DNA of 64,000 nucleotides, taken from positions 930,001 to 994,000 of the forward strand of contig NW_026516206.1 in assembly GCF_025602895.1 (NCBI RefSeq), written 5' to 3'. This document shows positions 4,918 through 51,124 of the stretch, piece by piece. How positions within the stretch are numbered: position 1 is the stretch's first letter; the number at the start of each line of letters is the position of its first letter. The translations under genes and the position numbers were made by a program. The notes below the pieces were generated by a model. The model was not told where the DNA came from. It made no database searches and saw only the letters and a program-made list of their open reading frames with translations. The stretch comes from Polychytrium aggregatum. Taxonomy: Eukaryota > Chytridiomycota > Chytridiomycetes > Polychytriales.

Positions 4918-6152
4918 TCCACGCAGCTGATCGGACCAGCGCCTCGCCCGGCGGCGCTCTCGGCTGCATCTCGCCGGGTCGGTGGTCCGTTCATCCGCAC
5001 AAGCCGCGCGGCGTTGAGTCATATTCTGTCAGCGGGTCAGGACGCGCCGGGACGACACGTGAGAGCGAGCCGGGGGATGGGCGGTGTTGGCCATGGAAGA
5101 AAGGGCTGGCTGTGGATGGTGGCAAGAACGGGCGATGCTGCGTGTGGGTGATGGTGGGTGCTGGTGAGTGCTGGTGAGTGCTGATGCTGCTGGCGGTGGA
5201 GAGGGAAATCGATGGGCGAGAGCAGGAGCGAGGGCGGTCGTCTTGCAGCCGGATCCGACTCTGTCCCCGGTGATTCGCAGCGCCTCGCCGGGCGTTCGAT
5301 GCATTCGACGCATTTGGTGGAATCGATGCGATCGATGCGATCGATGCTGGGCGCTCAACGTGCTTGGCCATCCGCAGCGTGCTTGGCCAGCCGCAGGCCG
5401 CCTGCTCGGTGCATGTGCATGAGCAAGGCCACGGCCCACCCGCAGACCCCGGCCCATGAACGGCACTCCTCCGCGAGCACTCCGCGAGCACTCTGCCGAA
5501 AAGTACTTTTGCCCATCAGGGACCCTGGCGACGCAGTGATTCACCATGCATCATCCCGTCGCCTATTCACCCGCGGGCTCGGTGGTTGATACTCCACCGT
5601 GGCAGTGGTGTCTTTGCTGCCTGCAACTCCTCGCTTGCGACGCTATCCCGTCCTACCAGTCCGGGACCAGCGGTGGCAAACATCGGCCACTCGGATTGTT
5701 CGTTGCCTGGGTCGCTGGATGGCTGTCTCATTCCGTTCAGTCCGTCTCGTCCTCTCGACCGTCGATCCTTACCAGCATCTGTGATTGGACAGCCTTGGTG
5801 CCCTTCTCTGGAACCAGAGGCTCGAAACTTTGGCTCCTGAGTTCTCGTCAGACGTTCGCTTGCCGGCCTGCCAGCCAATCGTCTCGCTCCATGCCCATTC
5901 CAGCAGAAGATGCTCGCCAGACACCTCCAAACCCTCTGCGGCCGCGGCCAGAGCGACGCTCCCAGCCCGATGCCAACCACCAGCCGCTGCCGTCGGCAGG
6001 TCAAAAGGTCTGCGGGCATATCCTCCCGTCAAACTCTCGCTCGTGCAAACAAAACAAACCAAACCAAGAGATCTAACCTCATCGCGACCTGCACTTCTGC
6101 TCGTGTTGTTTGCAAACATCGGGCCTGCTTTCCACTGCTCCATGCCCCGGCC
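4918..6152. other. Divergent intergenic region
   Basis: Upstream of both the universal-stress gene (minus) and the GT2 gene (plus). It holds a short ATCGATGCG repeat near 5318-5348. No additional gene is supported; the many frames are low in family-like content. Confidence 0.5.
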
Positions 6153-8876
6153 ATGCCTGCGCTCCTGAACATTGACCAGTTTGCGGTCCCGGCCGACGAA
6201 TCGATCCCGCCGTGGCTGCGAGTCGTGGCCATCGTCATCACCTCCCTCTCGGCCCTCGAGTTCTCCATCTACACGCTGCTCTTCCTGGCCTTCCTGGCGC
6301 ACTCGTTCGCCACTGCGCGCTCGTTCTTGCGGAGGACATGGGTGTTGGTTGGCTCGCTGCTGTTCCTGCTCCTGCGTCTGCCCTTTGTGGTGGTGCATCT
6401 GTACAACTACAAGATTGTCTTCCCGCAGCTCGACTTTGGCGTCCTGACCGAACCGGAGGTCCTCACCGTATGCTTCTGGGCCATCTCTTGGCTCTACTTT
6501 GCCATCACTGCCCTGCCGCCCGTCGGCTTGTTTGTCAAGGAGCTCGTGGCGGCCATCTACTGCTGCTTCTCTCCCAGAGAAGGTGCCATCCTGGACCCTA
6601 ACAGTCCAAGAAAGCCCACCGTCGTCGCTATCGTCCCGGTCTACAACGAGCTATCCGAGGTGAGCACCAGCGAGACATGTCCGGCCAATCCCGGTCCCTG
6701 TTCCCACGCACTTGACAGCAGCCGGATGCATTCGAGCTCTGGCCGTCTCGCCTGTGCGTTGTCATCTCGCCTGTGCGGTTGCCGTCTCACCCGCCCCACT
6801 GTCGCTCCTTCGTGCATCGAATGCCAGGTACTGCTCTCGGCATGTATTTCCTTTGTTGAGTCCCAGTACCCCAAGGACCGTCTGCATCTGATCCTGGCCT
6901 TTGACGACAAGTCCATCGATAGCCCCCTCTTCAAGCGAACCATGAAAAATCTCAATGTCCATGGCCACCACCAGACCGACGACCCCGATGTCTACAACCT
7001 TTGCTTTTCGAATGTACCGGTGACTCTGTGCCGCTTCCAGCATGCGGGCAAGCGCCAGACCCAAGCCCGTGCCTTTGCCTTGCTCGAAACGTACCACAAG
7101 ACCGAGATCGACCAGGGCTCGCCGCCGCTGGTCCTGCTGATGGATTCGGATGTGGTTCTGGATCGTAGGGCCGTCGCCTCCATGGTGAGCCGCATGAGTG
7201 CCAGGCCCAGCCTCAAGGCCCTCTGCGGCCTCATCAACTGCACGTCGCCGTACTTCAATCTGTGGCTCTATCTCCAGGACGCCGAGTACGTCGAGAGTCA
7301 GTGGCTCCTCCGCGGCTGGGAGTCCATGCTGGGAGGCGTGACTTGCCTGCCAGGGGCTTTTACCATGCTGCGGTACGAGGTTGTCAAGGAGCTCGCTCCG
7401 AGCTACTTTGGTCTGATTCCGACGGCGTACATGTCGCATCTGGAGTATCCGCGACTTCATCTGGGTAAGACCGATCCGAATCGCCAGATCCCGGACTGCC
7501 GCTTCCGCCAGGGATTGCAGCCTTACTCTTCTCTTCCACCGCCCCATTGCCTCCATCCAGGCGAGGATCGCTTCATGACCTTCCTGGTTTTGGAGCAGTT
7601 CACGGGTATGCACCAAGTCGCCTTTGAGCCGCGTGCCCGATGCAAAACATACGCACCTTCAAAGTTCACCGATCTGCTGAGGCAGCGACGGCGATGGTTT
7701 CTTGGTAGGGCCACGTTCTGCGAGTAGAGCCGGACATCCAAATATTGAAATGGGCATTCCGTCCGAGACCCAGGCGGCAAACTACAGCCATTCACTCCGT
7801 CCCCTGTTCGCCGCTCGTCTTTGCAAGTTTCAGTTCAGGGAGGGCAGGCATTTCGGACCTTGGAAGCTCTGCTGCATATTGAAAGCTCTGCTGTGCATGG
7901 GAAGATCGGCTGGGCTGTCGAGCACATAGCCTGATTCACCTGCAATGCATTGCCGGACTAACATCGTGGTTTGCTTGCACTACAAGGCACCATCGCCAAC
8001 GAAGCGTACATCCTGACGTCGCCGGTCCTGTGGGCAAGCTATCCGTTGCTCCTGACCATCCAGCTCCTCCACAGCTCCTATCGCTCTCTCTCCATGCTCA
8101 ACTACCTCCTGGTGATCTTTCTCTTCCTCAGCCAGATGAACCTGTTCCCGCCCCTCTACTTTGTCGTCTGCTACCTCATTCCGCTCGGCCTCACTGCGCT
8201 GTCCATGCTATACATGGCCGTTCGCCTCCGACGATGGAACGTGGTCGTCTACCCAATCACATATGTGCTCTTCCCCTTTGTGAACTGGATCGTCCTCTTC
8301 TATTCGATCGCCACCTTCACGAGAAGGAGCTGGGGCGGCCCCCGTGTCGTCAAAGCCGCCGAGACCAGCGAGTCGCCCAGCCCAACCGAGTCCGAGTTTG
8401 ATGCCCGCGAAATCATTGAGATGTACTCGGACGAATACCAGCGAGTATGGACCCCCTGTTTGACTCTCTTGCACATGCCCTCCGCCATGCTCGATGTCGC
8501 CGCGATCCGAGGGGCGTGCAGCATTCGCACCGCACTCGCTACTAACGCTTTCTGCCGGACCGGATGCAACGCACCATAGTGGGTGGTGTCCATGCCGCCG
8601 CCTCCACATGCCGCACCGGAGGTTATCACTGTTCTGGACACCGAGAGCCCTCGGTATATAGACCACGAGCATCGAAAGTCCAGCATGAGCGATGTCTCAG
8701 GCAAAACCCTGGCCCTTGTCCGAGCCGAACAAGACACTCCCTCGATGCCTGTGCCCATGCCCGTGCCCTTGTCCACGCCCATGTCATTACCGGAACAACC
8801 ACGGTCGTCGGCTGACCCACAGCAGCAGCCCGACGAAAAGACCCTGCACCGGTTCAATATGAGTGGGTCGGACTAG
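6153..8876 (+). CDS. Chitin-synthase-like processive GT2 glycosyltransferase
   Basis: Integral-membrane family 2 glycosyltransferase of about 680 residues, probably polymerising UDP-GlcNAc or a related sugar at the cell surface. Exons: 6153-6659, 6828-7464, 7561-7704, 7987-8444 and 8580-8876, all in phase. The N-terminus has three to four hydrophobic segments, followed by the catalytic domain: VVAIVPVYNE, the first Asp pair in LILAFDDKS, the DxD motif in VLLMDSDVVLD, GGVTCLPGAFTMLR, HLGEDRFMTFLVL, and the chitin-synthase signature QRRRWFLGT spanning an intron. Four to five membrane segments follow, then a polar Pro/Ser-rich tail of about 130 residues. It lacks the myosin-motor and cytochrome-b5-like regions of large chitin synthases, so the exact class and product (chitin versus another beta-glycan) remain open. 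Confidence 0.85.
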
Positions 8877-12435: not shown

Positions 12436-15400
12436 TCAAAGCTCCAGCATCCCGACAAACTCGCTGTGGAGCTCCTTGAAGATGAGTGCACTGCCAGAGA
12501 GTCGCTTGAGACGCACGCCGTGGACCTTCAGCAGCCAAACCTTGCAGATTTCAATCTCAAACTTGACAAATTCGCCATCAGCGGCATCGGGCGAGTCCGA
12601 GCTGAGGGTATAGGAGCACTCGAGCATGTAGTAGTCCTCCACTCGCGAGAACTGCAGCTGGTTGCTGTGTCGGCTCTGCATCACCACCAGCACTCGGTGG
12701 ACCTCTTGGAACATCAGGGCCGGTGCCATCGACGACGTCGTCGCCGAGTTGAAGGCAAAGCGCACCGACCGGATCTCTTTTGGCGGCCGATGGAACAGGT
12801 GCCAGTCCTCGATCTCCTTCTTGGAGGGCTCGACGGTTTCGTCGGTTGCGACGGACGAGTCAATCACCGAGTTGTCGATGCTGCTGTTGGTCATCGGGCC
12901 CGCAGAGGCCAACTTGCCTGAAATGTTTGGCGAGTCGCTCATGCTCTCGCGGACAGTGGTAGAGTCCGACGTGATCGGGCTGACCATCGACATGCGTCGC
13001 ATCTTGGTCATATCGCGGTCCAGGTCGACGAGGCCCTCGGATGCTCTCCTGACTTTGGAGCTGTCGGCAGTGCTGGCGCGGAGATGGCCGGTGTTGACAG
13101 ATGCCGGGCTGGCCATGCTGTCCGTAGACCGCTTATCCACGGGCGAGACGTGCGATGAGATGGTCGTGATGATGCCAGGGACTTGGATGCGGAGCGATGC
13201 CGCACGGCGCCGATATCCGCCCATGGGCACTTGCACAAGAGACCCCGGATTCAGATCGAGCGGATTGCTGCTTCCGCTGCCGACGTTGGGGATCGAGGGG
13301 ACAAGCGGAGGCGTCGACCTCTCCTGCATCGACATTCTCCGTGCGTGGGTCTTGGGCTTGGTGATAGGGGGCGCCGACGGCAGCGGAGACACTTTGTCCT
13401 CTTCTTCGACGATGGGCTTGTTACTCGGATCCGCCGCGGAGGCCGCGGCGGTGCGGACAACGAGCACTTCGTGGTTGGATATGGACGATCTCTTCTTCTG
13501 GAGATACTTGGCTGTGACTGGGGTGTCGCTGTCCCGGACGTGCGATCGGAAGGTATAGATCGTAAAGGTCTTCTCCTTGGTGATGCTGGAAATATACTGT
13601 CCGACGGCAGAGGCATCCGAGTTGCTTGTGACGCGAGGGCTGATGCGAGAAGGTGGGCCAGGCTCTTCAAAGTTGACCCACGGATCGTTTCGCAGTCCCT
13701 CCATGTCGATGCGAGCCTTGGGATCACGCACCAGAATTCTGGAAAGCAATTTGCGCAGCTCTGTCGCCAACGAGGGATGCAGTGCGACAAGAAAATGGCG
13801 ATACCAGGGCACCAGATCAGCACAGAGTCGAATGTCAAGGCAGAGCCGATGCAGACTGGATGCAGGCTGGATGGGCAAGCCCACTCTGCCCGGCACTTGT
13901 CGACGAGCAACAAGAGATATGATGTGCAGGGGAGATCAGCTGACCGGAGCTCACCTGGCGAAAAGTAGTCCGGACATTTGTAGTCCACGGCTTTGATTTT
14001 GGAATACAGCGCCGATATGTTTTCGCCCACAAAAGGCGGTCTGCCTGTCATCATGACGTAGAGCACAACCCCCATGGCCCAAACATCCGACTTGACGCCT
14101 ATGTATGGGATTCCAGAGATCAGCTCGACGGCGGCATAGTTGGGCGTGCCACAGAAAGTCTTGTCGTTGGAATGTAGCGCCGAGGGTAAATTGGGAGAGA
14201 ACACATCCGGCGCAACAGTGGCACAACCGAGGGTTTGAAACACCGGTTCGCCGCAGAATGTCGGCACAATTGGTGCGATGTTGGTCGATACAGTCCGCGT
14301 GTGGTCGAGGGTTGGCCGATGAAGTGACAGCGCCGGTGCCATATTGTGCCGGTGCCACATTGTGCCGTGCCGACCAGCGATGGTTGATGGAGTGTGCATT
14401 GGTGAGCGGGAGAGTCAGCGAGACGTCCTGTGGGTGTCAGTGTCTATATGGTCTGTCACTGACCTTCATGTAGTCGTCCTGGTCCGACGTAAAGGTGCGG
14501 CCGAGACCAAAGTCCGAAATGAGGATGTTTCTGTCAGAGTTGAGGAGTAGATTTTCAAGCTTGAGGTCGCGATGGACGACGTTGGCTTGGTGGCAGTGAT
14601 CCATGGCGGATATGATCTGGCGGAAGAACTTGCGAGCTTCCTTCTCTGTTAGCCGGCTTCGGGCAGCGATGTAGTCGATTAGCTCGCCGCCCGAGGCATA
14701 CTCCCTGTGAGCATCCCCCCGGAAGGAACAGCCAAGCCAATATAGTCAAGCAAATGCGAACAAGAACAATGCGCGGCGTGAACATGGTTTCGGTGTGTCG
14801 AGTCGGTTGGAATCGGCATATGTGCGTCGAATGAGAGAGGGGAAGGGTTGGGTTAGCGCTGACATGGAAGTACAACACGCACGTTTGATGGGACCGAGCA
14901 AGTGAGAACCAGACTCCTCCCAAAGCATGCATGCGAATGCGGCCAGACGGCAAGATACGACACCAACGCTGCAAGCCAACCCAGACTCGAGAGACATGCG
15001 CGATACGAACATGATCACAAAGCACTCGTCCTCGGTCTCCATGACTTGGTAGAGCGTGATGACGTTTGGATGGTCGAGTCTCATCAGCAGCTGAACTTCC
15101 GGCTGGAGGGACGACACGAACGACTTTTCTCCCGCGGCTTTGTCACTATTTTGCTTTTCCTTCTCCTCCTGCTTTTCCTTCTCCTTTTCCTTCTGCTTCC
15201 TCTCCTCTTCTTGCGCCTGCGCCTCGGCCGTGCGGGGCCTGCGCTTCAGCTCCTCGGCCCTCTTTCGCTTCTCTCGCTCTTCTTGTGCCTGTTTGGCTTT
15301 TTTCGCCTTGGCCTCAATCTGCTTCTTGTCTATGATTTTGATGGCCACCTGGGCGTTGCAGGCGGCATTCGTGGGGAATAGAGGGATGGAGGCTGGGTCA

Positions 15401-15660
15401 GGTACAGCCCAACACGCAAGCACGACGACTTTGGCGACCGTGTGAATCCGCCAGGCAGATACACAGTGTCCGCCGAGCGAGATGCTGGCTGTTGCGAGTG
15501 CCAGCCGCAAGCAACCCCGAATGAATGCAAGGGAGAGTGGGCAGACCTTTTGCCCGGTTTCCCGGTGGTATCCGATCTTGACTTTTGAGAAAGCGCCCTG
15601 GCCGATGGTTTTCCCCACATGGTAGTCGCCGAGCAGTTTCTTTCTGGCGAGCATTTGCAT
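12436..15660 (-). CDS. MARK/PAR-1/KIN1-like Ser/Thr kinase with KA1 domain
   Basis: CAMK-group kinase of about 740 residues. Exons (minus): 15660-15547, 15348-15011, 14704-14464, 14159-13955 and 13760-12436, all in phase (donor GTTCGT for exon 2 is inferred from phase). The kinase domain starts near residue 12: [15 protein letters not shown], the Lys in VAIKIIDK, catalytic loop [16 protein letters not shown] in LISDFGLGR, then [16 protein letters not shown]. Between the Lys strand and helix C lies an inserted Lys/Glu/Gln-rich segment of roughly 65-70 residues. A long Ser/Pro-rich linker with RRMSM-type sites follows. The final ~120 residues are a KA1 membrane-binding domain ([19 protein letters not shown]). 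Family members control polarity and the cytoskeleton. The APE motif reads AVE. Start at 15660; a second Met is two codons later. Confidence 0.93.
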
Positions 15661-16342
15661 TCGAGGCAAAGAAACAGCGGGGCTATCTGGTACTGAGGCC
15701 TACGAGGAACTGCTTTGGATGTATGCGGAGAGACCGTCCTTGGATCGGTGGGAAAGCAGTGGCGATACGAACGGAGGCTGGAAGGCGGTCTCAGCGGTGG
15801 CTCCCTGGCCGGCTCGCGGATGATGCAATGGTGCTAATGGAGCAAGCGGGACTCGATTCACACGAGGGGAAAGGAGGCTCGATGTGAACCACGTCAGTGG
15901 CGAATCGACGGCAAGATGTGCTTCGAGCAAGTGGCCGACGAAGAGCGATGAACCCAACAACAAGCGATGCTGCTCTGAGCGGCAGATGTCGTTGCTTCCA
16001 GCGACACCTGGCCGTCGCTGTCCACAAACAAAAGCCGTCCGCTGGGAGGACTGACGAAACCATCAATACCTGTCCAATCAGCCAGCCGCCACTGCTGCTG
16101 TTGTCGCCACCACTGCTGCATACAATGCCTGCTGGAACGACTGACCCACTTGCCTGTCGCTGCCGAGCCCGATCCCAATCACTTGCTGCATAGGCTTCCA
16201 GATTGTCACTTCCACCGGCCAAACGAGGCGGGGCTGGAGCAACCGGGCGGCGCGCGGGCGGGCAAAGAGAACACCGGTGATCCAGCCGGCAGCTCCGTTT
16301 AGTTGGCGGCTTTGAATGGCGGGCCTGAGAGGGCAGCACGGA

Positions 16343-40235: not shown

Positions 40236-41154
40236 ATGTACTCCTCGAGACTCTCCCGTCCTCTGCTGAACTCGGCCCGCGCTGCCAGCGCCACCGCCCG
40301 CGTTGCTCGCCCCTCGGTGTTCATGCGCCATGCCAGGTATGTCTCTTGCTGCTGCCGTTGCCGGCGCAGATCGCCTCCCGTCCCCAGTCGCCACGCGGAG
40401 TCGTCGGTCGATCGCTTTCGGCGTGCCTGCGCATCGATCGCACACGCAACGAGTCAGCCGGCCTCCGTTGCTGATCGGTGTGCACTGGCGAAATCCGGAC
40501 CCGATCTGATCTGATCTGAACTGATCTGATCAGATCAGATCCGGCTCGGCGGTGGGATCTCTGCGGTATCGGCGCCTCCGCGACCTCTCCCCCCTCCGAA
40601 CGCAACCCCGAGCGATCAGGCCGTTCGCGTTGATTGCCCTTTTCCAGCGCCCTCCAGCGCCGCCAGCTGACCGATCGTCTCCTTCCGCTGATCTGATTCC
40701 GACAGTGACAAGGTCCAGGGCGCCGTCATCGGTATCGATCTGGGAACCACCAACTCGTGTGTCTCCGTCATGGACGGCAAGACCCCCCGCGTCATTGAGA
40801 ACTCGGAGGGTGGCCGCACCACCCCCTCGATCGTCGCCTTCTCCAAGGACGGCGAGCTCATTGTCGGCACCCCCGCCAAGCGCCAGGCCGTCGTCAACCC
40901 TGAGAACACCCTCTATGCCACCAAGCGTCTGATCGGCCGGCGCTTCGACGACCCCAACGTCCAGCGCGACTCCAAGATTGTCCCCTTCAAGATTGTCAAG
41001 CACTCGAACGGCGACGCCTGGCTCGAGGCCCGCGGCAAGAAGTACTCGCCCTCCCAGATCGGTGGCTTTGTCCTCATGAAGATGAAGGAGACCGCCGAGG
41101 CCTTCCTCAACACCTCCGTCAAGAACGCCGTCGTCACCGTCCCTGCCTACTTCA

Positions 41155-41188
<34 letters not shown>

Positions 41189-42614
41189 CCAGATTGCCGG
41201 TCTCAACGTCCTCCGTGTCATCAACGAGCCCACCGCTGCCGCCCTCGCCTACGGCCTCGACAAGGTCGGCGACAAGATTGTTGCCGTTTACGATCTCGGT
41301 GGTGGTACCTTTGATATCTCCATCCTCGAGATCCAGAAGGGTGTCTTTGAGGTCAAGTCCACCAACGGTGACACCCATCTCGGTGGTGAGGACTTTGACA
41401 ACGCCATGGTCAACCACATTGTCGCCGAGTTCCAAAAGTCCAACCAGATCGATCTCCGCAAGGACCTGATGGCCCTGCAGCGCATCCGCGAGGCTTCCGA
41501 GAAGGCCAAGATCGAGCTGTCGTCCACCCCCCAGACCGAGATCAACCTGCCCTACATCACCGCCGACGCCACCGGCCCCAAGCACATCAACCTGAAGCTC
41601 ACCCGCGCCCAGTTCGAGGGCCTCACCAAGGACCTGATGGACCGCACCATCCAGCCCTGCAAGACCGCCATCAAGGATGCCGGTGTCAGCACCGGCGACA
41701 TCAACGAGGTCATCCTCGTCGGTGGTATGTCCCGTGTCCCCAAGGTCCAGGAGATTGTCAAGTCGCTCTTTGGCCGTGACCCCTCCAAGAGCGTCAACCC
41801 CGATGAGGCCGTTGCCATCGGCGCTGCCATCCAGGGTGGTGTCCTCTCCGGCGAGGTCACCTCCATCCTCCTGCTCGATGTTACCCCTCTCTCGCTCGGT
41901 ATCGAGACCCTCGGTGGTGTCTTCACCCGTCTGATCTCGCGCAACACCACCATCCCCACCAAGAAGTCCCAGGTCTTCTCCACCGCCGCCGATGGCCAGA
42001 CCCAGGTCGAGATCAAGGTCTTCCAGGGCGAGCGTGAGCTCGTCCGCGACAACAAGCTCCTCGGCCAGTTCAACCTCGTTGGCCTGCCCCCTGCTCCCCG
42101 CGGTGTCCCCCAGATCGAGGTCACCTTCGACATTGACGCCGACGGTATCGTCAACGTCTCTGCCAAGGACAAGGCCACCAACAAGGACCAGTCCATCACC
42201 ATCGCCGCCTCCTCGGGTCTCTCTGACGCCGAGATCGAGAAGATGATTGTCGAGGCTGAGAAGCACGCCGAGGCCGACAAGGCCCGCAAGGACGTCATCG
42301 AGGCCGTCAACCACGCCCAGTCCATCATCAACGACACCGAGAAGGCCATGGGCGAGTTCAAGGACCAGCTCGACAAGGAGGAGGAGACCAAGATCCGCAA
42401 CCAGATCACCGAGCTCCGCGAGCTCATTAGCAAGGACCCTGAGCAGCTCACCCCCGAGAATGTCAAGGAGAAGTACGACGAGCTCCAGCAAGGCTCCCTG
42501 AAGCTCTTCGAGATGGTCTACAAGAAGCGCGCCTCGGATGGTGATGCCAGCAAGACCGAGGACAAGACCGTTGACGCCGACTTCAAGGACGCCAAGGACG
42601 AGAAGAAGAACTAA
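40236..42614 (+). CDS. SSC1: Mitochondrial Hsp70
   Basis: Matrix chaperone of 669 residues that drives protein import and folding with J-protein and nucleotide-exchange partners. Exons 40236-40336 and 40706-42614. The Arg/Ser/Ala-rich N-terminus ([18 protein letters not shown]) is a matrix-targeting presequence. The ATPase domain shows [18 protein letters not shown] (phosphate 1), [15 protein letters not shown] (phosphate 2) and [14 protein letters not shown]. The substrate domain follows [18 protein letters not shown]. The C-terminal lid ends in an acidic/Lys tail without EEVD, as expected for the mitochondrial form. Codon use is strongly biased to C-ending codons, indicating high expression. 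A 763-codon frame on the opposite strand is a by-product of that bias. A J-domain gene lies at 60 kb in the same window. Confidence 0.97.
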
Positions 42615-43223: not shown

Positions 43224-46200
43224 CTAGCTGTGGCTACTTGAACTTCGCCGCAGATGCATCTCGACAAAATGGCGCAGATACTGTCGCTGCTTCTGCTGGA
43301 TCAAGGCCATGTACACGCCTTCGTCTCGGTTGTTTGGGCCAGGAATCCGCGAGACCAACTTGGTCTGCCAGGACAGAAGCGAGGCGTGGGCGTGGACAAG
43401 CACAAGGCGCATGTGTAAGCCAGAAAGGGAGAGCAGTTGGTCAGGAGACTCGTCAGTCCATGGCATTCTCGTCAGTCCATGGCATTCTCGGCAATCCATT
43501 GGCATTCTTGTCAATCCATTGGCATTCTCGTCAGCCCATCGACCCTGTTACTCACGATTGCATCCAGAGTCTTTTCGTCGCCGCGCAGCTTGGCGTGGTC
43601 TGTTGGAAGGTCGGAAACGGGGACAGCAACAGCAACAACGGTAAAGGCAAACGCAAGGGCAGCGATGTTACAACCGTGATGGCTGGACCTTGGTTCATAT
43701 TCCCGTGTGAAGGATGTGGGCTGTCTGCGCCACACCGTTCCCAACACGGCGTCGCCCGACTTACATGCCATCCACTCGAGGAGCGTAACATCGTAGAGAG
43801 CTTCGAATGTGGCCCGCTTCACCTTCTGATACCAGCAGACGCCGCTGGGCCACGACTTGGTCGCATAGAGCTGCAAGCGCGCAAACGAGTCCGCATAGTC
43901 CTTGGTTGTGCCAAGGTACTGGGTAAAGACCACGGCGGCGTAATGCACTAGTGGTGGTGGTGGTAATTGGAGGCGAGGATGAAGCCATCACCCGCAGGGT
44001 GGTGATGTTAGATTCTCTTGGATGACCCAAAAGCACCCAATGCACATGCTCGTCGATATCCTCGGAACTATATCCGTGACTTACACTCGAGCTGCACGCA
44101 GCAGTCAATGAAACGGCGGAATGTCTTGGACGACCACAGCGTCTCGAGCTTGTCCATGCTCACAAAGTTGGAGGAAAGCTGCATCAGGCCGCTTGAATAT
44201 TGTCTGGCGTGGGGCAGATGCGACGGCGTGCGAGTCAGATGATTTTGAGCCAGAAGTGCTTTCGAGTATGTCCATAATTCCCTCTCAGCTGGTCGCAATG
44301 TCCGAGCTCCGGTCATTCTGGCCCGAGACAATCCTAGGAGAGTGACGCCGCTACTCACTGGAGCGCCTGGAAGTGCTGTTCGCTTCCAAACCACAGATCG
44401 CCCAGGCAGAAAAACGAGGCCACATCGTTTGGCTTGAGCTCGGTGACGCTTTCGTACAATCTCTGCACGAACGCCATCAAGGGTGGATGGCATTGCTGGA
44501 GAGCCGACTCCAGCAGTGGCGGGGCCGCCTTCATCTTCGTGGCCGTTTCCTGGATCCTTTGATGTCACCACCCAAACCCAGGCGCAAGAATGAGAATGCC
44601 GTCAGCCGCATGCCGGAAACACAATTGCCACAGGTTGAGCGCGTATATCCCATGTCCAACCATCTCCGTTTGCGACATGTCCATGTGGCAGCAGACTTAC
44701 TCGGCAATGTTCCACCCCTCCGTATATGAAGGATCCGCTGTGATGCTGCTCCAGACGCCGACATTCTCCAGGGTGATCTGCGTGGCGCACAACAGTATTG
44801 GTAAGTACACAAGCGTCCTCTCCTGTTGCGCCCATCGCATTCCAGCCACTCTAGCATCCTTAACAGTCGCATTGTCTATCATTATCAAAGAGCCATCAAC
44901 TCGAAACCCTTATACCACCTTGCGGTTTGCCGGCTGCGATCGACTGAGAATCCCCGACAAAAGGCCGCCCAGGATTTTGAGAGCGTCGACTTTGCCGCTG
45001 CCCACAAGCACATCGAGCAACACTTTGTAGACAACCTTCCAATAGCGCGGCAGCCAAGCAGATAGGTCAGCTCACGTCTGTCGTTCGAGATTGCATTGCA
45101 TGAGCTTGGCGATTGCGATGCGGAGGGATGGAGGGAGGCACGATCGTACCGGCTCGGGCGACGTCGCCAGCAGCGTTACGAATTCGGCTATGCACCCATG
45201 GATTGAAAACAGCACATTCTGGGGAAGATGTGCAACAGACTGTGGATCGTCGCTGACTGTTGGGCAGAGTTTATGAGGAGCGGGACATGCATGCTCAGGA
45301 AAAAGCAGCGACGGCGATCTCCGAACAGCATTTGTGCCAGTCGGTGTGAGGCAATGAGCCTTTGCTTACTCGATTTGTCGCCCAGAGTGCAGCCAAGCGA
45401 CTGCTCGATCAGGGCAATGATTTGGAAGGCCTGACAAGCAAGCACTCCTGCAGAGAGCAGGCTTGTGGTCTGCGTCTCCAGTGCTAATGTGGACACCATA
45501 CAAATCGCATCCATCGCCACCAAACATGGATGAATTAGCGGCCGATCCACTTCTGTTCAAGCTTAGCAAGGGCACATGGACTCGATATTGCACAAGTGCG
45601 CCGGTAGCTGTGTGGCAATGGCTTGATTGATAGCGTCTCTAGCTCTACCTTTGTTTGGCAGCTGTCCTTTGATCAGCTGCAAACGGCGTTGCAGATACGA
45701 CTTTGTGTCCTGGAATGAGTTGTCCAGCTCGACCCTGAGGAATCGATTCTGGGGATGGGGCTGTTGTTAGCGAACAGCGCGGGTGCCAACGAAAACTGTA
45801 ACGCAACGGGTGCGACCGAGTGAACCTATGCGGGCAAGAGAGAGGCTCACAGAAAGCTCGACCATAAAGCTAGCGCTGCAGCAACGATGACTCACAAAAA
45901 TGCCAACATCGAGCACCAAGTCAGGCTGTCATCGCAAAAGTGACGAGTCGTGGTGGTGAGTAAATCGCCGTCTTTTAGAACCAGAGCGGAGTCGAAGCAG
46001 TTCGGCCACACCAGCAGTCTGTCCCGAGCGACCATGTCCTCATTATGGTCTGTGGCACATACCGAGACAAATTGGTTGACAATCGCATTGTGGACAACGC
46101 CTGCATTGCGTCCCCCACGGCTCTCCTCGTAGAGATTGAAGAGCTGCATGATCTTGATCTTCTCGGAGAGCTCACGGATCAGTGCCCCGATGTTTGGGTT

Positions 46201-48849
46201 ATCATAGAGCCCGCTGGAATGGATTGTGGACGCTGCCTGGATGGCGGTTTCCGCTTCGATGTACAGCCCCTGTTTCAAAACAACGCAAGCACTCCGTCAG
46301 TTGCCACACATTCGACACCGAAGAATAGCTATATCGTGGTCATCGCAAACAGTTACCTGATCGTAGAACAGACGGGCATTCGAGCAAAGATACGGGATCG
46401 AAACCTAGACGAGGAATCCGGCGCCTTGGTCAGCTAATCGGTCAGCTCATTGCAAATAATCGTCAGCAATCCCAACCCATTCACATCCCATTCATATCCC
46501 ATTCACATCCCATTCACATCCCAGACACATCTCAGACACCACCTGCCTGGGGCGAAATGTTGAGCATCTTCAGCTCGCCGAGAATGCTATCTGCCGAGAG
46601 TGGCGGCTTGAGGAAGGCGAGATTGAGCAGTGCCTCGGAAAAGGTATCACCAGTTACGGGCGCAGCGATCTTGCCCATCCTGTCGATCCGATGTTTCTGA
46701 TCGGCTGTGAACGGACCACATTTGGACTCTGCAGGCAAGTGAGAATCGCGGATCCATGTAAGCAAGTGGGAGTAGCATGCGCTACAGCAAGGAAGATCAT
46801 TCACTTACTTCGCTGATACAGCTCATTCCACAACGGCACGGTGTCGATAGCATCGCAAAACTGGATCACGAAGCTCGATACGACATCGGCCGTTGTAGAT
46901 GCTGACTGGAGTCGGTGCCTCTCGATCTTGGAAAAGAAACAGGCAAACACATGCTTTGGGTCGGCGGAGTGCCTCAGCGTCACAATCAGACGCGGAGACA
47001 GCTGCTTCATCATCGCATCTGGCAGAGACACACAAGATCAACGATCATGGCAAGTCTGGATCGATCAAATGCAACGCCGAGCCCCAGTGTTTTGTCCACA
47101 ACATCAAGCTATGCCTGGGCGGGCGCGGCAGTCGACTTTACCAGCTCCTTCGGCAGAGTACTGGAATGCATTGACAAGGGCGATCCCAAGTGCAACATCG
47201 ACGCTGCCAGCATCAAGTGCAGCTTCACCCAGATACTGCCTCAAGCTTGCCGGGATTGTCTCGGCGACGAGACCGCTCTCCAAGTGCATCACGATATCGT
47301 CATAGTAGCAGCCCGACTGCAGAGCTTTGTAGATGCTGCTCATCGCATTTTCCGCTCCGGACGACTCGGAGGCCATGTTCAAGACATGTCGACAGACACC
47401 GATGCGCTTTCGCACCTTGGCCAGATCCACGGTGCTGGAGATTCAAATGGAAAGGCGTCAACCGCCTTGGTACGAAATCCCGCAGCACATGCTCACCACT
47501 TGAGCTTCCTGCTTCGCATTGACATCAAGGCGCAGCTTACCAGAATGCATCCGCCGCCAGGAACCCAGGGTCACGGCCGGAGAGTATGTTTTCGCATCGC
47601 TGGAACATCTGAAGCGCCTCTCCATAGTCGTCGATCTGAAGGCTATAGTTCCCGAGCTCCTCCATAAGCTGAATGGCTCTGTCGCTTCGCTGTTGTTTCC
47701 AAGAGAGGCTCGTCAGGGGTGGTTGCCATCCTTGGTCTGGATGCTGGATCCGATACACTTGCTGTCCGGATGAGGGGAACGGCCCAAATCCAACAGGCTC
47801 TTCATTCAGTTCGGGGCAATGCATCCGGTCGCGGTGCGATTCCTATCGTACCTCGTTCAGCGAGCTCAGAAATGTGCGAACATAGTGATGGTGAACTTGG
47901 AGCTGGTCGGCCGACTTGCCTGGCCATGTGTATCGACAAGCATATCGCAGCACGAACCGATGGAAAGTGAGGATTGCTCCGGTCGAGCTCGATGGCTCGT
48001 TGCTGCAGAAACGACATGGGTCAGCTACCGACCACTGACCCGACCCAATGCCCAGAGCTCAAGAAGGGGTTTGACGTTGGCCATACCGAATCTTGTTCAG
48101 CGACAGGAGCACATATGGCGTGATATGGTCAGGGATAGTCGACTCGAGCTCCTGGAGGGTCAGGGATATGCCGTCGACGATCTTGCAGATTGAGATGGAA
48201 TCAGTTCTGATCTTACGCATGCTGTGCGAGCTGGACTTTAGCACAACATCCGGCCCCTCGTCCAGAACGGCGAGTCCAGCCAGGCATGGGTATGCAACAG
48301 ACATCCGATCCAGAAACCTCTCTGTGGGCTTACCCGAGCCGAAAGGCCCAGCATGATCTGCTGCTTGCTGGTCAGCGAAAACACCTTCAGAGTATCGGGC
48401 GACACCAGCGGCTCGGCCAGATCAACCACAAACGACGGCGCTTTGCCATAGTCCTTCTCGAGATCGATCTTGGAGGCGAGGGCTGCGAGCAGGTCCTTCA
48501 AATGAGACTGGCCCTTGACAGGATCAAGCAGCGATGTCTGCACCTGCACGGCGAGGCCCGAATACCAAGGCGATGGATGGGATTGCACAAGGTCAACGAT
48601 CGGAGCGAGTACGATGCGGGCACGATGAGGCACAGATAAATCCCTGCCGAGTTCTTTCGATGGTTGACGGCGGATGTGGGTGGCCAGACGGCATCATGGA
48701 GCCATTGTGATGCCGACCGCAAAAGCGCATAGCATCCTCGCAGAGGCGGGCTATCATCTCGTATGGAACGGCCGGGCGATATTTACATATGCAGAGATCT
48801 GGTCTGGGTCCAGTAGCCATGCAAAAAGATGTTCTCTCAACACCTCCAT
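43224..48849 (-). CDS. INTS8: Integrator complex subunit 8 homologue
   Basis: TPR-like subunit which, in animals, links the PP2A phosphatase module to Integrator, a snRNA-processing and transcription-attenuation complex. Many small exons (minus): 48849-48787 (MEVLREHLFAWLLDPDQISA), about 48640-48334, 48235-48087, 48002-47852, 47689-47541, 47434-47142, 47018-46809, 46728-46543, about 46270-45896, one from about 45750, and several more down to the stop at 43224. Blocks matching animal INTS8 in order are: a MEELGNYSLQIDDYGEALQM repeat, CTVDLAKVRKRIGVCRHVLN, FRRFIDCCVQLE, HYAAVVFTQYLGTTKDYADS, TFEALYDVTLLEWMA, and the closing IQQKQRQYLRHFVEMHL, which parallels the family's basic C-terminal helix. 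The joins after exon 1 and around 46.3-46.5 kb and 43.9-45.6 kb are unresolved. Introns hold 22-bp and 11-bp repeats. Confidence 0.8.
43448..43545 (+). repeat. Intronic tandem repeat, ~22-bp unit
   Basis: Four imperfect copies of GTCAGTCCATGGCATTCTC within an INTS8 intron. Confidence 0.88.
46480..46528 (+). repeat. Intronic tandem repeat, 11-bp unit
   Basis: About four copies of CATTCACATCC or close variants between INTS8 exons. Confidence 0.85.
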
Positions 48850-49448: not shown

Positions 49449-51124
49449 CTACTGGAATAGCTCGCGGGTGAACAGCCGACCGCCGAACAGGAGGTTCCAA
49501 GAGTGTGGGGGCTTCCACTGGATGGGCGTATCTAGTGTCGATTCACAGTCGATGATGCAAGGAAGAATGTTGCAGAGTCACAAGGAGCGATTAGACAAGT
49601 CCAGCGAAATGCCAGCGCCCAGCGCATGACATGTCCGGGACGCAAGAAGCATGGGCCTCCAGCTTACCTTTGGGACCATGCAGCAGCGTATCTGCAAATC
49701 CAGCCAGATTGACGGCGTCGGGGATGTTGTCTGTTCATGCATCAAGACCAAGCAGCCGTGTTAGACTCCATCAAACCGGTCTCTGTTCATGCATGCAGAC
49801 CGGAATGCTGCGCGGGATGGGATGAGACAACTACCTCCTTCGGAAGCAAACCAGATCACGGCAATGATCGGGACAGTTGACGACCCAAAGTGCTCCAAGA
49901 GATAGCGGGTGGACCCGGCTCCCGGTGGAATGGCATGGTTGACAGCCCCATCAAGCGCAGAAGGATCCACAGGCTCAAGAGCCTTCCAGCCGTATGCGGC
50001 CACCTCATTTTCAAAAATCTTGGTAGGCTGGTTCGCCCAGGCAAATCGAACTGGCACGCTGGCAGCACGACACCAGTAACCCCGGAAAGGTTGAGCATTA
50101 GATGCCGACGGATCGGGAAACAGCTATGCTATCGATGCAGCGACGGTGCTCTGGGCTGTGTACCTCTGGATCTGCGGATCCAAGCGTCGTCGGGCATCGC
50201 AGCCAGTGAGCTGAACGACCTGCTTGAATTCGCTCTGCTCGATCCAGTCTTGCAGATCCTTGGCAAACAGGTCGATCTTGGTCTGGAGATGAGGATGGCG
50301 GCAGAGTCAGCACCAATGCTGGTGCGCCACTCGAAAGCTTCATTGTCTGGAACTTTGGGACGACCCATCATGTCCCTGGCGACTGCCGGTCTCCGTGCGA
50401 TCGCAAAACGAGTGGGACGTCACCGCCAGTTCGACCGGCATTAGCCCACCTTGATCACAAGCGACCGCAGTTGGACCACGGTCAGTAGCGAGTCGGCATC
50501 TTGATAGACTGCAGTCGAGGATGGTGCGACAGATAGAAAGAGCGTTCAGCCGATACAGCCACAGAAGGGACTGGGCGTCATCCGAGACATGATGCTATCG
50601 CGACGGCAGCGTCGATCGATTCACCTTCAAAGCTGGTATGGAGCACACCCGCCTGATCACCCGGTTTGGCGTACGCATCGTTTCCGGCCAGCGGCAGAAC
50701 CCACGGCGATTCCAGGAATCCGACTCGCTTCAAGCCGTAGGTGGACACAATCAAGTCGATGGCAAGCTGGGTCGATCATATCAAGCATACTGTGTCAGCA
50801 TCAAGATTGCCACGAGGGCACTCATCGAATCGCAGGGAGCCAACATGCGATTGTGGAACAAAGAGGCACCTGTCCAATGTTGCCGATGTTGTTTGCGGCG
50901 GGCTGGAGCCCAGCCGTATCGTCGATGTCGGTGGGAGCGTCAGTTGCGGTACTCAACTGCTCATCTGCTCATCTGCTCATCTGCTCATCTGCTCATCTGC
51001 TCATCTGCTCATCTGCTCATCTGCTCTCGCTGTGATTGCCAACACAGCACATCGTGTTTACCAGGATCAAAGTCGATCCAGAGAGCTTGGCCGAGGTGTC
51101 GGTGCCGATGTAGAGCAGGGTCAT
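49449..51124 (-). CDS. PSMG2: Proteasome assembly chaperone 2
   Basis: PAC2/Pba2-type chaperone that, with its PAC1 partner, helps build the 20S proteasome alpha ring. Exons (minus): 51124-51062, 50902-50870, 50766-50625, 50508-50450, 50282-50164, 50058-49835, 49730-49668 and 49531-49449; 261 residues, all in phase and close to the length of the human protein. Recognised blocks: GSTLIL then PAANNIGNIGQ (a 33-base exon) then LAIDLIVSTYGLKRVGFLES, PLAGNDAYA, LLTVVQLRSLVIK, ENEVAAYGWKALE, EGDNIPDAVNLAGFADTLL, and the C-terminal PPHSWNLLFGGRL that follows the family's W-x-L-LFG ending. Intron 1 carries a CTCATCTG array. It is divergent from tRNase Z-1, with 282 bases between start codons. Confidence 0.92.
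50954..51028 (+). repeat. Intronic tandem repeat, CTCATCTG unit
   Basis: Eight or nine perfect copies of an 8-bp unit in PSMG2 intron 1. Confidence 0.93.

Follow-up and report, generated by a model that had tools for sequence, protein, structure and literature searches.

The window analysed here (the whole stretch of 64,000 nucleotides; contig NW_026516206.1, positions 930,001 to 994,000) contains on its minus strand, at 48849..43224, a putative gene for INTS8, a subunit of the Integrator complex. The gene was assembled as a spliced model of 20 exons encoding 1019 residues. INTS8 had been proposed at this place by a sequence-only reading, the end points of which fit a start codon (48849) and the last base of a stop codon (43224); both segments that it quoted were located in minus-strand frames (ALYDVTLLEW in 43987..43511 and IQQKQRQYLRHFVEMHL in 43547..43224). 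The 19 introns are 80-314 bases long and compatible in phase, and the model frame runs through all 20 exons with no stop before the terminal one. Junctions were picked with the human INTS8 protein in view, and GT-AG borders were imposed on all introns by construction. Donors read GTA or GTGAGT at 17 of the 19 introns; those of exons 1 and 8 are weak.

Codon usage provided an independent check on the model; its training set was five stretches from Hsp70, INTS11, eEF3 and CPSF73 genes of this genome. The model frame scored above both other sense frames in 18 of the 20 exons (exceptions: 1 and 13) and was the top of all six frames in 13; an antisense frame outscored it in exons 5, 6, 11, 12 and 14. 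The exons, all on the minus strand, are as follows; "top of six" and "top sense frame" refer to the model frame by codon usage.

48770..48849, minus strand: exon 1, tentative; start codon; LFAWLLD resembles human WFEFLLE; weak donor GTTCCA, codon usage unsupportive
48334..48643, minus strand: exon 2 of the model; top of six
48087..48235, minus strand: exon 3 of the model; top of six
47852..48002, minus strand: exon 4 of the model; top of six
47541..47689, minus strand: exon 5, TPR-like; weak TPR_12 match at residues 228-265, under the cut-off; top sense frame, antisense higher
47142..47434, minus strand: exon 6; FCTVDLAKVRKRIGVCRHVL resembles human HCTIDEKRLAGYCQACDVL; top sense frame, antisense marginally higher
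46809..47018, minus strand: exon 7 of the model; top of six
46538..46728, minus strand: exon 8; 3' junction uncertain, donor GTCTGA; top of six
46357..46404, minus strand: exon 9 of the model; top of six
46063..46269, minus strand: exon 10 of the model; top of six
45649..45748, minus strand: exon 11 of the model; top sense frame, antisense higher
45370..45552, minus strand: exon 12 of the model; top sense frame, antisense higher
45150..45256, minus strand: exon 13; boundaries uncertain, frame not favoured by codon usage
44916..45035, minus strand: exon 14 of the model; top sense frame, antisense higher
44701..44777, minus strand: exon 15; ITLENVGVWSS aligned with human ITAEHISIWPS; top of six
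44359..44556, minus strand: exon 16; within the TPR_INTS8 and human INTS8 matches; top of six
44085..44203, minus strand: exon 17; structure match, TPR_INTS8 match, codon usage
43765..43947, minus strand: exon 18 with ALYDVTLLEW; structure match, TPR_INTS8 match, spliced alignment, codon usage
43556..43599, minus strand: exon 19; structure match, TPR_INTS8 match, codon usage
43224..43364, minus strand: exon 20 with IQQKQRQYLRHFVEMHL and the stop codon; structure match, codon usage; the spliced alignment ends at 43254

Short tandem repeats were seen at 43449-43539, 46476-46539 and 50952-51026; the first two are intronic in the INTS8 model, and the second reaches the edge of exon 8.

The identity of the product was assigned from the C-terminal region. 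The spliced protein matched the Pfam family TPR_INTS8 (PF25756) at residues 820-979 with 48.6 bits (cut-off 27; E 6.6e-13), and the top match among solved structures was human INTS8 (PDB 7cun chain H; 2.7e-7; best stretch at residues 821-1008), followed by an unrelated structure at 0.4. A spliced alignment that chose its own introns was run with residues 776-995 of human INTS8 as query against the minus strand of the window. It scored 89 and was placed ending at 43254; 22 shuffled queries reached at most 54 (mean 45.5, standard deviation 3.4) and the reversed query 50. Under a harsher intron penalty the real query scored 73, the best shuffle 53 and the reversed query 50. The donor and acceptor limits of this test, which fit most of the donors in the model, were set only after a laxer test had failed. 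The product is, as judged by these matches, a relative of INTS8 and a new member of an already known family, the function of which is predicted accordingly by homology.

Significant similarity to INTS8 is confined to the C-terminal ~200 residues, as would also be seen in some other helical-repeat (TPR) protein with C-terminal repeats that are INTS8-like by chance or through generic TPR similarity, and weak matches to three generic TPR models do exist. All three lie under their own cut-offs, however (the highest, TPR_12, with 16.8 bits against 30.1), whereas TPR_INTS8 stands 21 bits above its own; the human INTS8 match extends to residue 1008 of 1019, and five further Integrator subunits are encoded in the genome (see below). 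Membership of another TPR family is thus very improbable.

Those subunits were found by searching the genome (64.7 Mb, 418 contigs) for INTS2, 3, 4, 5, 6, 9 and 11. Reciprocal searches, made with one stretch per subunit, ranked the named subunit first for INTS2, 4, 6, 9 and 11. INTS11 (contig C68, second copy on C363) is 64-69% identical to the human protein in two stretches covering query residues 4-468, and over 4-597 the identity is 49% if introns are read through and kept in the sequence. Its reciprocal search gave INTS11 at 8.5e-151 and CPSF73 at 1.7e-68. CPSF73 is a separate gene (C13, copy on C292), and by these comparisons INTS11 is a dedicated nuclease gene distinct from it. The HFHLDH metal-binding and active-site motif is retained in INTS11. 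An INTS9 candidate (C124, copy on C401) was matched by the INTS9 query at 4.1e-11, the CPSF73 locus more weakly at 9.0e-10; a 71-residue stretch of the candidate returned INTS9 (1.8e-12) ahead of yeast Ysh1 (0.036), and the candidate, like human INTS9, is without HFHLDH. A CPSF100-like gene, so named by eye, lies separately on C46. INTS4 (C1) was matched in two stretches with 50% and 58% identity (reciprocal 5.3e-14). INTS6 (C179) was matched in four collinear stretches, two of them weak (E 0.0036 and 0.10; reciprocal 3.6e-13), and retains IDEADE at the PP2A-blocking DEAD loop. INTS2 (C388) exceeded the cut-off of PF14750 (reciprocal against PDB 4e-9). Several genes are present twice, on separate contigs and with scores that are equal or nearly so (L001/L002, L005/L006, L033/L034, L049/L050), as if haplotypes had been assembled apart; INTS2, INTS4, INTS6 and INTS8 were each found on a single contig.

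Several results weigh against assigning the whole gene to INTS8 within a complete set of partners. In the laxer spliced test, run at full length, real and shuffled queries did not separate (300 against 236-309 in five shuffles). No unspliced frame matched human INTS8 significantly; among the nine frames reported, three lie inside the gene region (E 1.1, 1.4 and 3.8) and six elsewhere in the window, the lowest E being 1.1, so that the case for INTS8 depends on splicing. The order of blocks, which the sequence-only reading had taken to follow animal INTS8, was borne out for the C-terminal part (89 against at most 54) and was not recovered for human residues 1-775, which scored 53 in the same spliced test against 50-65 in 11 shuffles. 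Windows of 60 residues from the N-terminal ~780 residues had best matches that were not collinear with human INTS8, and gave no significant pairwise signal. Among the subunits that the sequence-only reading had named as a check on INTS8, INTS4, INTS6, INTS9 and INTS11 are present; INTS5, the direct partner of INTS8, gave no match with PF14837, nor did INTS3 with either PF10189 or human INTS3 as query, in exon-wise genome searches. These searches were insensitive, because the INTS8 profile likewise missed the gene at 48849..43224.

The N-terminal exons were assigned to INTS8 from gene structure, length and likeness seen by eye (LFAWLLD with WFEFLLE; FCTVDLAKVRKRIGVCRHVL with HCTIDEKRLAGYCQACDVL). 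The exon 6 segment had its best local match at the expected human position, weak when taken alone (2.1 bits). The WFEF of human INTS8 belongs to an N-terminal segment that docks PP2A; its resemblance to LFAWLLD carries no statistic, and the frame of exon 1 lacks backing from codon usage. The high divergence of the N-terminal part, together with the two weak splice junctions at exons 1 and 8, would suit an INTS8 copy that has decayed into a non-functional pseudogene as its lineage loses Integrator. Decay is scarcely credible for a gene with all exons open and in compatible phase, in a genome in which INTS11 is highly conserved, including its metal-binding motif.

Compared with human INTS8 (7cun_H), the product is similar in length (1019 against 995 residues) and shares a collinear C-terminal TPR region and tail, with the block DVTLLEW where the human protein has DVTILEY. 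It differs in overall identity, which a forced semi-global alignment puts at 23.5% (197 of 838 aligned residues), and in its N-terminal part, which is too diverged for reliable alignment and has LFAW in place of the human WFEF.

In the animal complex, according to the available parts of two articles, INTS5 and INTS8 form a shoulder, INTS2/5/6/8 place PP2A on the C-terminal domain (CTD) of RNA polymerase II (Pol II), and INTS4/9/11 cut nascent RNA (PMC11062913, PMC10511320); the former also describes, in the part available, that INTS2/5/6/8 bind PP2A and that the DEAD loop of INTS6 blocks PP2A-C (PMC11062913). INTS8 is reported, in an excerpt of another study, to co-purify mainly with INTS5 (PMC7980224). 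The genome resembles this Integrator-PP2A complex (INTAC) in encoding INTS2, 4, 6, 8, 9 and 11 and in keeping the motifs of both the INTS11 active site and the INTS6 inhibitory loop; it differs in that INTS3 and INTS5 are without a match in the insensitive searches. Plants, too, have a set of Integrator-like proteins, the DSP1 complex, in which INT3, INT4 and INT9 have potential homologues and one protein is INT7-like. It works with CPSF73-I, whereas a dedicated INTS11 and INTS8 are encoded here; in the available part of the source no plant INTS8 is named for that complex (PMC5079582).

The neighbours of the INTS8 gene in the window include the following.

5841-7727, plus strand: chitin synthase-like gene (Chitin_synth_2, 1.8e-21)
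12436-15699, minus strand: frames matching a protein kinase (just under the cut-off) and a KA1 domain at the C-terminus, which may belong to a single gene
40692-42614, plus strand: Hsp70 of mitochondrial type, a single long open frame in convergent orientation to INTS8

A gene for an LDB19-type arrestin also lies inside the window. The fungal host suggested by the sequence-only reading agrees with the chitin synthase, the eEF3-like genes and 27 matches over the cut-off to Zn2Cys6 (Zn_clus) in the genome (copies on paired contigs counted; none in 14 control genomes of unstated identity), which serve as fungal markers. Both Zn_clus and LDB19-type proteins are characteristic of that group. There are apparently three distinct eEF3-like genes (L049 on C9, C135 and C386/C87), the longer stretches of which are 41-53% identical to yeast eEF3.

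Were the host instead a non-fungal opisthokont or protist (e.g. a nuclearid, aphelid or choanoflagellate), its Integrator would be ordinary. The best eEF3-like match, over residues 183-1003, reaches only 52% identity with yeast eEF3, and eEF3 is described, in the part of the source available, from all fungi and from a few other lineages including choanoflagellates (PMC11378755). Against such a host stand the Zn_clus matches, the chitin synthase and the LDB19-type arrestin, and we regard it as unlikely, though less firmly so for aphelids and nuclearids, which are close relatives of fungi; from its gene content the host is likely a fungus. We infer an early-branching (non-yeast, non-mould) lineage because Integrator is absent in yeast and, to our knowledge, in moulds.

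The gene at 48849..43224 on the minus strand is therefore very probably the INTS8 orthologue of an early-branching fungus, neither yeast nor mould, that has kept an Integrator-PP2A complex. The genes are present and their catalytic and inhibitory motifs conserved; assembly of the complex, docking of PP2A and function are predicted by analogy. The presence of INTS2, INTS6 and INTS8 suggests, from gene content and motifs, that the phosphatase side was kept and not the nuclease alone. If the complex is built as in animals, INTS8 would be the partner of INTS5 in the shoulder module and would act together with INTS2 and INTS6 to hold the A/C core of PP2A for dephosphorylation of the Pol II CTD, and INTS4/9/11 would cleave nascent RNA, leading to early termination and possibly to 3'-end formation of small nuclear RNA (snRNA). 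With less assurance, we favour a working Integrator-PP2A in this lineage, which would cleave nascent RNA and dephosphorylate Pol II near promoters and on snRNA genes; its phosphatase-docking arm would then be older than the animal-fungal divergence and would have been lost towards yeasts and moulds.

The novelty is taxonomic: INTS8 is found in a lineage in which Integrator is commonly called absent. The complex is described as restricted to metazoans in the available part of a 2022 review (PMC9006982) and as absent in yeast in that of a further article (PMC5079582); no description of Integrator in fungi was found among the titles and abstract openings listed from an open-licence library. A fungus with INTS2, 4, 6, 8, 9 and 11 would contradict the metazoan-only view. 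Both arms, nuclease and phosphatase, would be moved back at least to the common ancestor of animals and fungi, and the loss of Integrator in yeasts and moulds would become an event that can be dated. The organism would also make it possible to test promoter-proximal termination and snRNA processing by Integrator in a fungus.

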